Below, piece by piece: positions 30,041-45,785 of a DNA stretch of 52,300 bases. Source of the DNA: Opitutaceae bacterium. Lineage in GTDB: Bacteria > Verrucomicrobiota > Verrucomicrobiia > Opitutales > Opitutaceae. The stretch lies in assembly GCA_027485815.1 (NCBI GenBank), contig JAIXQE010000140.1, positions 1 to 52,300 on the forward strand, read 5' to 3'. The first letter of the stretch is position 1. The number at the start of each line of letters is the position of its first letter. Under the pieces are notes generated by a model, which saw only the letters and a program-made list of their open reading frames with translations, was not told the DNA's origin and ran no database searches. The position numbers and the translations under genes were made by a program.

Positions 30041-30508
30041 TCAAGATTTCCGCGCCGCCAGGTACCGCGCGACGTCGTCGCCGGACACCCGTCCGCCCGG
30101 TCCCGTGGCTTCGATCCCGGTCAGCGTGGCCGGATCCAAGCCGGCCTCCTGGGCCAGCTTCGCCGCCCGGGGGGTCCAGATCAGGGCCGCCTTTGGCGCC
30201 GGCGCGGCGGCCGCAGCCGGCGCGGTGGCCGCGCCGGCGGCCAGGTGACGCAGGGACTCATCCTCGGTCTCCAAGCGCAGGAACGGGGAACCGGAGGGCC
30301 GGACATCGCCGGGAGCGACCAGAATGGCCCGCAAGACGCCATCCGCCGGCGATTCGAAGTCGAAGACCGACTTGTCGCTCTCCAACTCCGCCAGTTTCTG
30401 CCCCTTGCGGACCGTCTCGCCGGGCTGCGCCTTCAGGGAGATGACGGTGAGTTCGTTCACCGTGGCGCCCATCGCGGGCAGGGTGACTTCAATGAGGAAG
30501 GAGGCCAT
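30041..30508 (-). CDS. Stand-alone lipoyl domain plus E3-binding domain protein (E2-like without acyltransferase)
   Basis: 155 residues. Lipoyl domain at 1-80: EVTLPAMGATVNELTVISL, and ELESDKSVFDFESP with Lys46 as the lipoylation site. An Ala/Pro linker (about 92-108) leads to a peripheral-subunit-binding domain (TPRAAKLAQEAGLDPATLTG, then GPGGRVSGDDVARYLA). The catalytic acyltransferase domain of normal E2 (about 230 residues more) is absent and the stop is clean. It may carry acyl groups between a 2-oxo acid dehydrogenase and the coupled FabH-like enzyme. Alternatively it is a decaying E2; the intact domains argue against decay. Confidence 0.85.
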   Translation of the reverse strand: MASFLIEVTLPAMGATVNELTVISLKAQPGETVRKGQKLAELESDKSVFDFESPADGVLRAILVAPGDVRPSGSPFLRLETEDESLRHLAAGAATAPAAAAAPAPKAALIWTPRAAKLAQEAGLDPATLTGIEATGPGGRVSGDDVARYLAARKS

Positions 30509-30571
30509 GCGGGGAATTTGCCCCGGAGTGTGGAACCGGCCCGCGGAGGGTCAAGCGGCGCGGCTCAGCCG

Positions 30572-30838
30572 CCCGTGCGGCGGAAACACGGTTCGAGCTC
30601 CCGCCATCCTGCGGCCGCGGCGTCTATGGACGCCCCGCACAGCCTCGACCGCGGATGCAACCCTTTGCGCCTTTTGCGGCCATCCTGCTCCGGAAAACCT
30701 GACCAGAGGATGGCCACAAAAGGCTCAAAGGGCGCTGGGCGTGGACTACGCTGACGGTGGCGTCCATAGACGCCGCGCAGGCTTCAGGGCGAGCGCTCGG
30801 AACGGAGGGCTCCGGACCAAGGCCACGAGGCCTTCACC
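30572..30838. repeat. Long-inverted-repeat element, tandem copy 1
   Basis: Begins CCCGTGCGGCGG. Arms GCGGCGTCTATGGACGCC (30617-30634) and its exact complement (30759-30776) enclose 160 bases; inside, CTTTTGCGGCCATCC and GGATGGCCACAAAAG pair with one mismatch. The whole 75-base arms are imperfectly complementary. About 15 bases shorter than copy 2 ahead of the left arm. Open frames here give repetitive peptides and look spurious. With copies 2 and 3 it fills the gene-free stretch 30509-31344. Confidence 0.85.
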
Positions 30839-31119
30839 CCCGTGCGGCGGAGACACGGTTCGAGCCCCTGCCTCGGCGGCTCCCGCCATCCTGCGGCCGC
30901 GGCGTCTATGGACGCCCCGCACGGCCCCGACCGCGGGTTCGACCCTTTGCGCCTTTTGCGGCCATCCCGCTTCGGAAAGTCCGACCGGAGGATGGCCACA
31001 AAAGGCTCAAGGGACGCTGGGCGCGGACCGGACTGCAGGTGGCGTCCATAGACGCCGCGGAGGCTTCAGGGCGAGCGCACCGAGGGAGGGCTCCAAACCA
31101 CGGCCGCGAAGCCTTCACA
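30839..31119. repeat. Long-inverted-repeat element, tandem copy 2
   Basis: Complete copy. Arms at 30899-30916 and 31041-31058, again enclosing exactly 160 bases. Left arms of copies 1 and 2 are 282 bases apart, those of copies 2 and 3 are 283. Substitutions relative to copy 1 are scattered along both arms, so the copies have diverged since duplication. Confidence 0.85.
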
Positions 31120-31247
31120 CCCGTGCGCCGGAAACACCGCGGTTCGAGCCCCGCCTTGGCGGCTCCCGCCATCCTGCGGCCGCGGCGTCTATGGACGCCA
31201 CGCACGGCCCCGACCGCGGATTCGACCCTTTCCGCCTTTTGCGGCCA
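31120..31247. repeat. Long-inverted-repeat element, truncated copy 3
   Basis: Left half only: left arm at 31182-31199 and homology to copies 1 and 2 up to GCGGCCA at 31247, where it stops abruptly. The missing right half is replaced by the sequence at 31254-31301 that resembles an insertion-sequence end. Confidence 0.8.
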
Positions 31248-31253
31248 CGTTCC

Positions 31254-31301
31254 TGAGCTGGACCCCAGTCGTTGGACGGGTCTCCCCTCTGGTTACCCGT
31301 C
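31254..31301. mobile_element. Possible end of an IS3-family (IS150-like) insertion sequence
   Basis: TGAGCTGGACCCCAGTCG (31254-31271) followed by TTGGACG resembles the terminal repeat of IS150-group elements, as recalled from memory. GACGGGT (31275-31281) and ACCCGTC (31295-31301) form a small inverted repeat. It abuts the truncated third repeat copy. No transposase remains, so at most it is a remnant; the match is short. Confidence 0.25.
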
Positions 31302-31344
31302 ACTCGCTTAAGCTCCAGGCTGCGGCAGACCCGCACGAGTTGGC

Positions 31345-32139
31345 TCAGCCGCGGACGGCGCGCCACACGGCGAGGCAGCGGGCGATGACCGCGGGCAACT
31401 CCGCGAGCGGCACCATGTTGGGGCCATCGCTCAGGGCGCGGTCCGGGTCGGGATGGGTCTCGAGAAACAAGCCATCCGCCCCCGCCGCCAGCGCCGCCTG
31501 GGCGAGGGGCGGCACGAATTCGCGCTGGCCGCTGCTACGCCCGCCGCCGGCGCCGGGCAGTTGCACCGCATGGGTCGCATCGAAGATCACCGGCCGCCCG
31601 TGGCGGGCCATCAGCGGGAAGGCGCGCATATCCACCACCAGATTATGGTAGCCGAAGGTCGTGCCCCGCTCGGTCTGCCAGACTTCGCTGGCCCCGCCGC
31701 TGCGCAGCTTGGCGGTCACGTGCGCCATGTCTTGCGGGGCGAGGAACTGGCCCTTCTTGACGTTCACCGTCCGCCCGGTCGCGGCCGCCGCGAGCAGCAG
31801 GTCGGTCTGCCGGCAGAGGAAGGCGGGAATCTGGAGCACGTCACAGACCTCGGCCACGGGCGCCACCTGGGCCGCGTCGTGGATGTCGGTCAGGACCGGC
31901 AGGCCGAAGTCGCGGCGCACGGCCGCCAGCTGGGCGAGGCCCTCGGCGAGCCCGGGTCCGCGGGCGCCGGCGAGGGAAGTGCGGTTCGCCTTGTCGAAGG
32001 AGCCCTTGAAGACGAGCTGCAGCTCCGGATGGGCGGCGCCGAGGGCGGCGAGGGCGGCGGCCACCGGACGGCAAACCGCGTCGCCCTCGAGCGCGCAGGG
32101 CCCGGCGATCAGCAGCAGGCGGGTGGGATCGAAGCGCAC
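31345..32139 (-). CDS. kdsA: 3-deoxy-D-manno-octulosonate 8-phosphate synthase
   Basis: 264 residues. Motifs: [10 protein letters not shown] (10-19), [90 protein letters not shown]. Cys15 in AGPC sits where E. coli KdsA has Asn, so this is the metal-dependent class (Aquifex type), with His, Glu and Asp partners also present. It condenses arabinose-5-phosphate and PEP for lipopolysaccharide Kdo. It starts five bases after the pyrG stop, in a pyrG-kdsA operon as in many bacteria. Confidence 0.95.
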
Positions 32140-44718: not shown

Positions 44719-45702
44719 ATGAAAAACCCAATCCGCGTCGCCGTCACCGGAGCCGCCGGCCAGATCGGCTACTCCCTCCTCTTCCGCATCGCCTCGGGCG
44801 CCATGTTCGGCCCCGACCAGCCGGTCATCCTCCAGCTCATCGAAGCCCCCGTCGAGAAGGCCCTCAAGGCCCTCGAGGGCGTGGTGATGGAGCTCGACGA
44901 CTGCGCCTTCCCGCTGCTGCAGGGCGTGGTGCAGACGTCCGATGCCGCGGTCGGATTCAAGGACGCCAACTGGTGCCTGCTCGTCGGCGCCAAGCCCCGC
45001 GGCCCCGGCATGGAGCGCGCCGACCTGCTCAAGGACAACGGCCGGATCTTCATTGAACAGGGCCGCATCATCGATGCCGTGGCCGCCGCCGACGCCCGCG
45101 TCGCGGTCGTGGGCAACCCCGCCAACACCAATTGCATGATCGCCGCGTCCCAGGCCAAGCGCCTGCCCGCGGAACGTTTCACCGCGATGGTGCGCCTCGA
45201 CCAGAACCGCGCCCAGACCCAGCTCGCCCGCAAGGCCGGCGTCCCCCTCTCCCAGGTGCGCGACATCTTCATCTACGGGAATCATAGCCCGACGATGTTC
45301 CCCGCCTTCGCCCACGCCACGATCAGCGGCCGTCCGGCCACCAGCGTCATCACCGACAGCGCCTGGCTGCAGGGCCCGTTCTGCGAGACCGTCGGCAAGC
45401 GCGGTGCGGCCATCATCGCCGCCCGCGGCGCCTCCTCCGCCGCTTCCGCCGCCAATGCCCTCGTGGATCACGTGCGCAGCCTGATGACCCCCGGCGCGGT
45501 GCATTCGATCGCCGTGAAGTCGAACGGGCTTTATGGCTTCGACGCGAACGTCTGGGCCGGGATGCCCGTCATCACGACGAGCCCGGGCTCGTACGAGGTG
45601 ATCACCGGCTACGCGATGGACGCCTTCGCCCAGTCCAAGATCGCCGCGACCAACAAGGAGTTGGTCGACGAGCGTTCATTCGTGGCGGAGATGATCGGTT
45701 GA
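44719..45702 (+). CDS. mdh: Malate dehydrogenase (housekeeping)
   Basis: 327 residues. [19 protein letters not shown] (9-27) is the nucleotide-binding motif of the type 2 MDH group. Active site: [14 protein letters not shown] with the substrate Arg, [23 protein letters not shown] and the catalytic His in [11 protein letters not shown]. This TCA-cycle enzyme is distinct in type from the microcompartment dehydrogenase at 6880-7809. Downstream sequence is a short-repeat patch. Confidence 0.95.
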
Positions 45703-45785
45703 CGGTGAGTCGGTTGACGGTGGGTCGGTGGTCGGTTGCCAGTTGCCGGTGAGTCGGTGGTCGGTTGCCAGTTATCGGTAAATCG
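45703..45785. repeat. Short tandem/degenerate repeats after mdh
   Basis: A 21-base unit starts at 45724 and recurs perfectly at 45753 (29-base period); a degenerate TCGGTTGACGGT form precedes them at 45696-45719. The repeats sit between convergent mdh and an unknown gene. The minus-strand frame through them gives repetitive peptides and is not a gene. Confidence 0.75.

Follow-up and report, generated by a model that had tools for sequence, protein, structure and literature searches.

We find that the tandem array lying between positions 30572 and 31247 of the window, the 52,300-nt stretch of Opitutaceae DNA analyzed here, is probably a cluster of copies of a dispersed, non-autonomous repeat, which is restricted to one genus and behaves like a MITE or a REPIN. 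As a genus-restricted MITE-like or REPIN-like family it is new, and its kind is already known. The repeat has terminal inverted repeats, is short, non-coding and present in tens of copies, and shows presence/absence polymorphism, all of which are MITE features; of the REPIN/RAYT features it has the inverted doublet of a palindromic unit, and neither a RAYT in the genome nor a repeat-flanked RAYT was found. With the array, REPIN-like spread can be tested on a compact example, in a genome in which the usual transposase was not detected. Because close carriers exist, some sites are unoccupied in relatives and the ends recur in a second genus, the moving enzyme and any effect on 3′ ends can be sought directly.

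Anatomy of the array and of its unit

Comparing the window with itself for repeats gave direct repeats between about 30572 and 31247 that recur at spacings of 282 nt and 283 nt; two of the copies share a 205-nt stretch with 89% identity, and a stretch of 99 nt is present three times. The initial annotation had described this as a tandem array of 282-base elements with 18-base perfect arms in two copies and a half copy. The arms are there in copies 1 and 2 (30617–30634/30759–30776 and 30899–30916/31041–31058), where they are perfectly complementary, and only a single arm is present in the third copy. The 160 bases said to lie between the arms are the span including the arms, so that 124 nt are enclosed, and the imperfect complementarity assigned to 75-base flanks lies inside this span (53 and 51 of the 75 outermost positions pair, arms included), with only 23 and 16 of 75 pairing outside it. 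When up to two mismatches were allowed, the palindromic 16-mer GGCGTCYATRGACGCC had five matches in the window, all of them exact, where shuffles gave an expectation of 0.20, and this is far above chance. Tandem Repeats Finder at a score of 50 gave no report at the array, Rfam gave no window match above the gathering score (weak sub-threshold matches only), and the two long frames through the array matched no Pfam family at E 0.001. Elsewhere in the window, short tandem repeats lie at 45695–45773, including a 29-nt unit at 45713–45773 with 93% matches.

Each half-unit is about 75–95 nt long and carries two highly conserved boxes, the palindromic box 1 (CCGCGGCGTCTATGGACGCC) and box 2 (CCTTTGNGCCTTTTGYGGCC). 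There are two types, A in forward orientation and B, a diverged inverted relative of A, and orientation alternates along the arrays, as seen in 107 of 112 neighboring half-unit pairs over seven genomes (102/107 minus five overlapping matches to one palindrome). Tail-to-tail gaps measure 12–28 nt in 32/32 cases and head-to-head gaps mostly 100–115 nt (among 60 of the 75 gaps), with head-to-head pairs 255–285 nt long in 60/75 and a median of 269 nt. Since most complete arrays begin and end at box 2, running from box 2 of a B half to box 2 of an A half, the natural unit is the head-to-head BA dimer. Box 2 faces outward at both ends of the dimer and forms its terminal inverted repeats, with box 1 inside each end. 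The 282-base register is therefore half a unit off, the natural dimer of about 265–273 nt having box 2 at both ends, even though the 282/283-nt direct repeats themselves stand. Units occur singly or in short tandem arrays with short linkers, and this genome has eight BA sites and seven BABA sites, the others being truncated, solitary or cut by contig ends (three further weak profile matches in C10 and C73 were disregarded).

In the window, a dimer with its left half missing precedes two whole ones, and one direct repeat of the first unit begins at 30572. The features are as follows.

30041–30508, minus strand: neighbor gene with biotin/lipoyl and E3-binding domains (domain scan)
30562–30572, unstranded: left copy of the 11-bp direct repeat GGCTCAGCCGC bracketing the insert (sequence reading; sister comparison)
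30573–30686, plus strand: first unit, without its left (B) half; end of the center region, then half-unit A at 30597–30683 (direct repeats, profile match)
30616–30634, plus strand: box 1
30664–30681, plus strand: box 2
30707–30968, plus strand: complete dimer; half-unit B 30709–30801 (inverted), center, half-unit A 30871–30965 (profile matches, folding)
30712–30729, minus strand: box 2
30759–30777, minus strand: box 1
30898–30916, plus strand: box 1
30946–30963, plus strand: box 2
30989–31247, plus strand: complete dimer; half-unit B 30991–31082 (inverted), center, half-unit A 31154–31247 (profile matches)
30994–31011, minus strand: box 2, one mismatch
31041–31059, minus strand: box 1
31181–31199, plus strand: box 1
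31229–31246, plus strand: box 2, one mismatch
31248–31341, unstranded: extra DNA to the right of the array, missing from sister locus L051, no clear repeat (sister comparison)
31342–31352, unstranded: right copy of the 11-bp direct repeat, overlapping the 3′ end of the DAHP-synthetase-family gene (sequence reading)
31345–32139, minus strand: neighbor gene of the DAHP synthetase I family (domain scan), which we take to be kdsA-like

Searching the genome with 31248–31340 gave no convincing further copy, the best match elsewhere having E 0.177. By eye, GC-rich sequences that look alike (about GTTGGGCGGGTCGCC) follow several arrays within 60 nt on the right side, as around window 31248–31341, and they may represent an additional module of the element.

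Half-units resemble each other more within an array than between arrays (identity 0.873 versus 0.780 for A and 0.869 versus 0.820 for B, half-units below 55 bits left out), as expected from local amplification. Two departures from the usual layout were seen. Three solitary A half-units of the same orientation lie about 1.1–1.4 kb apart (L033; C215:5033, 6121 and 7476), and in L009, at about 1854–1882 (C83), the last A half-unit contains, by eye, about 29 nt of unrelated palindromic sequence, possibly another small repeat.

Dispersion and occupancy of sites

The initial annotation had proposed a genome-wide search with one unit, with occurrence at a single locus counting against it, and the search found a dispersed family. 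BLAST of one unit against its own 4.08-Mb genome (97.18% complete) gave at least 121 matches, and profile searches of the loci found in this way placed 83 half-units at 34 sites on 29 contigs (two short BLAST matches, C68:1-35 and C75:3-54, were left out of the profile searches). Nine of the 34 sites lie so near a contig end that one side has no scorable gene, and the copies are therefore probably under-counted. These contig ends show that the assembly does break at the repeat, as would be expected if the array were an assembly artefact or a purely local duplication, but dispersed copies with the same anatomy lie inside contigs with unique flanks and in other genomes, and we give this explanation practically no weight. 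Annotators should treat the repeat with caution, since several of its sites fall at contig ends and it gives rise to spurious reading frames.

Half-units are also present in six other genomes of the genus. Matches to the unit occur in at least 10 of 57 genomes, its own included, all within one of 31 genera, those in G002, G023 and G024 being single weak ones. With up to one mismatch, box 1 has 114, 79, 43, 22, 7 and 4 matches in this genome (G000), G010, G009, G021, G007 and G019, respectively, and one match each in four other genomes, where one place can be counted on both strands. Exact box 1 occurs in three of 372 genomes drawn from the order, six of the 372 being from the same genus. Box 2 with up to one mismatch is found in 22/57 genomes, often once, and since a reversed control pattern matches 7/57 genomes, about once each, single box 2 matches mean little. 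Plasmids and phages gave no match at E 1e-5. Among viral contigs there was one exact box 1 match, on a contig without box 2 at up to three mismatches, and this was taken as chance.

In another genus of the family, box 2 appears in a different setting. Seven of the nine box 2 matches in genome G031 form six outward-facing pairs whose starts are 91–93 nt apart, giving six elements of about 120 nt (L311, L315, L318, L321/L323, L325 and L327) in which box 2 ends surround a different palindrome, of the CGCGCTTATAAGCGCG type. The one element that we dissected has 24-nt ends that are 92% complementary around that palindrome. These elements are the best hint that box 2 may be a reusable mobile end. 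A modular superfamily in Opitutae is a tentative extension of this, to which we give a modest chance: the box 2 end (about GGATGGCCACAAAARGCNCAAA) would be reused with different palindromic cores across genera, in a RAYT-free spread of inverted dimers that depends on a different enzyme. Box 2-like sequences in alternating orientation and without box 1 were also noted at about 1500–1650 of L137 (G002), and in G043, from another family of the order, a box 2-like TTTTGTGCCTTTTGTGGCTATT adjoins other short intergenic repeats (L303, L308, L313, L320, L322 and L324).

At the window locus, the sister MAG ErkenSummer_bin-1681 (L051) has flanks that are 88–90% identical and no array. The matches in its genome, G057, are identical with those in G009, including their positions. 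The 11-bp sequence GGCTCAGCCGC stands in the window at 30562–30572 and 31342–31352 with 769 nt between, and the sister has one similar copy, GGCTCAGGCGC. The direct repeat may be a target duplication; it is a single case and overlaps coding sequence. After the two lineages split, the window array would have been either gained in this one or lost in the sister. Further empty sites were found at C129:4827 (in G009, G010 and G021), C129:8143 (in G010) and C62:5811 (in G009 and G010), and no clean target duplication could be defined at these three. Thus, all four sites compared for occupancy, the window included, are empty in at least one relative, and absence in a relative can also mean loss. Both species carry the repeat at other sites, in some cases with differing numbers of units: C33:4268 has two half-units versus six in G010, and C149 has two versus seven in G010, with one side only aligned.

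That the array might be a non-autonomous mobile element was one of two readings offered in the initial annotation, and it is supported by the 34 genome sites, the empty sister site, the presence/absence differences and the terminal inverted repeats formed by box 2. In the mechanism that we propose, an enzyme supplied in trans would recognize box 2, perhaps also box 1, and copy the dimer to new sites, and tandem units would arise through repeated insertion or unequal recombination. Since insertions into coding sequences or promoters would be removed, the surviving copies would lie mainly downstream of genes.

Conserved boxes, folding and gene context

Across 136 half-units from this genome and its relatives (relatives' half-units under 35 bits left out), conservation is dominated by the two boxes. 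Five of the six stem pairs of box 1 show the consensus in 132–135 of the 136 half-units and the sixth does so in 125/136. At sites shared with relatives, the three clean same-site pairs, out of eight, agree at 238/252 box positions, 444/531 inner positions and 379/441 outer positions (counts rebuilt from rounded fractions). Array expansion, weak alignment or different subfamilies disturb the comparison in the other five pairs, and with all eight taken together the boxes have identities of 0.93 and 0.91, the inner positions 0.67 and the outer positions 0.62. The better preservation of the boxes at shared sites means that constraint in place or gene conversion is possible, and it counts against a purely selfish element, which would not need it. 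Two of the same-site pairs, C183/L280 and C33/L262, have an identity of only about 44% inside the unit, so that repeat insertion or conversion is possible.

One explanation for such conservation is that a protein acting on the nucleoid or on DNA topology reads the boxes as double-stranded DNA, similar to what has been proposed for BIMEs, with the paired spacing of the boxes being important. The near-constant stem pairs of box 1, its conserved loop and the narrow range of unit length would fit a protein site of this kind. On the other hand, the family reaches multiple copies in just a few genomes, all of one genus, and is gained and lost between sister species, and the ends used in transposition would show equal conservation; we therefore hold this explanation to be improbable.

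The other reading in the initial annotation was that the folded form matters. The unit does fold far better than its shuffles, with z of −6.68 and −6.66 for the two strands, which an inverted dimer is bound to do. Selection on the long hairpin should make the two arms of a unit more complementary to each other than to arms taken from different sites, and this is not what we observe. Arm complementarity within the same unit versus between different sites was 0.5945 versus 0.5944 for tail-to-tail arms (n = 18 pairs) and 0.5905 versus 0.597 for head-to-head arms (n = 31 pairs), half-units under 55 bits being left out. With no co-variation between the two arms of a unit, we rejected selection on the long hairpin as unsupported; the check for compensatory changes that had been suggested came out negative, and what is kept instead is the two sequence boxes. 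Within the box 1 palindrome, double changes from T-A to C-G occur in 5/136 half-units and from C-G to T-A in 1/136, where related rows may count one change several times, and as evidence for pairing these are weak at most. Conservation extends to the unpaired loop of box 1, which would point to recognition of the sequence itself. The long hairpin is probably a by-product of the inverted layout of the dimer.

Arrays lie preferentially between convergent genes. Of 19 arrays with at least two half-units and both neighbors visible, 12 occupy convergent, seven co-directional and none divergent gaps, compared with 24 convergent gaps among 110 control gaps of at least 40 nt (p = 0.0005), and dropping a doubtful case leaves 11/18 convergent (p = 0.001). 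In relatives, 14/31 arrays are convergent versus 31/138 control gaps (p = 0.014; arrays with less than 400 nt of flank left out). The genes beside arrays and controls were called by third-position GC, not from annotation, and the left gene of C119 and the start of the left gene of C50 are doubtful. The window array is an exception, standing between co-directional genes of the DAHP synthetase family and with lipoyl/E3-binding domains. Of the six G031 elements, two are convergent, without clear bias. The bias toward convergent gaps is compatible with insertion tolerance or with a 3′-end function.

In the latter case, the repeat would be useful to the host as a bidirectional transcription barrier or 3′-end element, the stable fold of either RNA strand stopping read-through or protecting 3′ ends. 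The excess of convergent gaps in this genome and in relatives, the strong fold of both strands and the better conservation of the boxes at orthologous sites all speak for it. Yet no intrinsic terminator (stem plus T run) was found in 30400–31450, where the shuffle mean was 0.8, and the arms lack co-variation. In addition, the window copy and six other arrays of the 19 lie between co-directional genes, the G031 elements show no clear bias, and the convergent gaps of relatives work without the repeat. We consider such a barrier unlikely and continue to favor a dispersed element that works like a MITE or REPIN.

The 33 neighbor proteins that were scanned have varied functions, with nine of 30 lacking any family at E 1e-5, and no transposase was among the 33. 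A weak TniB match beside an array proved to be the ATPase part of a Clp protein, not a transposase.

The presumed moving enzyme and known repeat families

A search for a matching transposase, which the initial annotation had also advised, found none. PF01797, the RAYT-type family, had no match in G000 and none in G010, G021 and G019, all of which carry the repeat; G009 carries two PF01797 genes and G007 a single one. At up to three mismatches, box 2 was found within about 1.5 kb of none of 20 PF01797 loci in relatives, and at four mismatches, two of the 20 loci had one match each. An autonomous copy was sought as a transposon-sized outward box 2 pair without repeat units in loci L290–L328, and none was seen. 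By their coordinates, the 41 exact GGCCACAAAAGG places in the genome, from an incomplete MAG, all lie inside known repeat sites. In a limited literature set, a text search found the 16-mer GGCGTCYATRGACGCC and CCTTTTGTGGCC in no paper and GGCCACAAAAGG in the text of four papers with unrelated titles, and a topic search gave no description of the repeat family among the matches listed.

The BIMEs of E. coli consist of palindromic units in alternating orientation and with regular spacing. The window family is like them in all three respects; it differs in that its units are longer and of other sequence and that no REP signature or RAYT was found.

According to the portions of PMC3116915 used here, REPINs are REP doublets that form hairpins, occur in tandem clusters and leave single REPs read as remnants. 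The likeness to the window family is close, in that both are intergenic inverted doublets with a predicted hairpin, found in tandem clusters and as solitary remnants, with the doublet as the replicating unit (PMC3116915, same portions). It could then be argued that this is a true REPIN family whose RAYT was lost from the genome or lies in the unassembled part, the assembly being incomplete at 97.18% and PF01797 genes being present in G009 and G007. However, membership of the REPIN–RAYT system fails a key test, with PF01797 absent from the genome, and no box 2 at up to three mismatches lies near the 20 PF01797 loci. Moreover, box 1 shows no GTAG tag, and the two-box half-units far exceed the 20–40 bp given for REPs in the part of PMC3733652 drawn upon. 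We regard a true REPIN family as quite unlikely, and a repeat that merely works like a REPIN or a MITE remains the reading that we prefer.

As described in the sections of PMC10969869 consulted, bacterial MITEs (Correia, ERIC and QMITE2) resemble the window family in being short, non-coding and intergenic, with terminal inverted repeats, a stable fold and tens of copies, and QMITE2 lies mostly in 3′ untranslated regions. Unlike these MITEs, the window family is without a parental IS that could be found and without an established target duplication, and where they are AT-rich, it is GC-rich and has box 1 inside each end (PMC10969869, same sections).

The CGTC- and GTAG-tagged repeats are similarly palindromic, intergenic and able to form dimers, in the account that we used from PMC3733652. 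That part of the source says that CGTC repeats have no dedicated transposase and reports them for five phyla, Verrucomicrobia not among them. A CGTC-tagged REP is defined there by an unpaired CGTC at one end of the stem-loop, whereas CGTC in the window family sits inside the GGCGTC stem of box 1 (PMC3733652, same part). Opitutus terrae is said in the same part of PMC3733652 to be rich in GTAG repeats.
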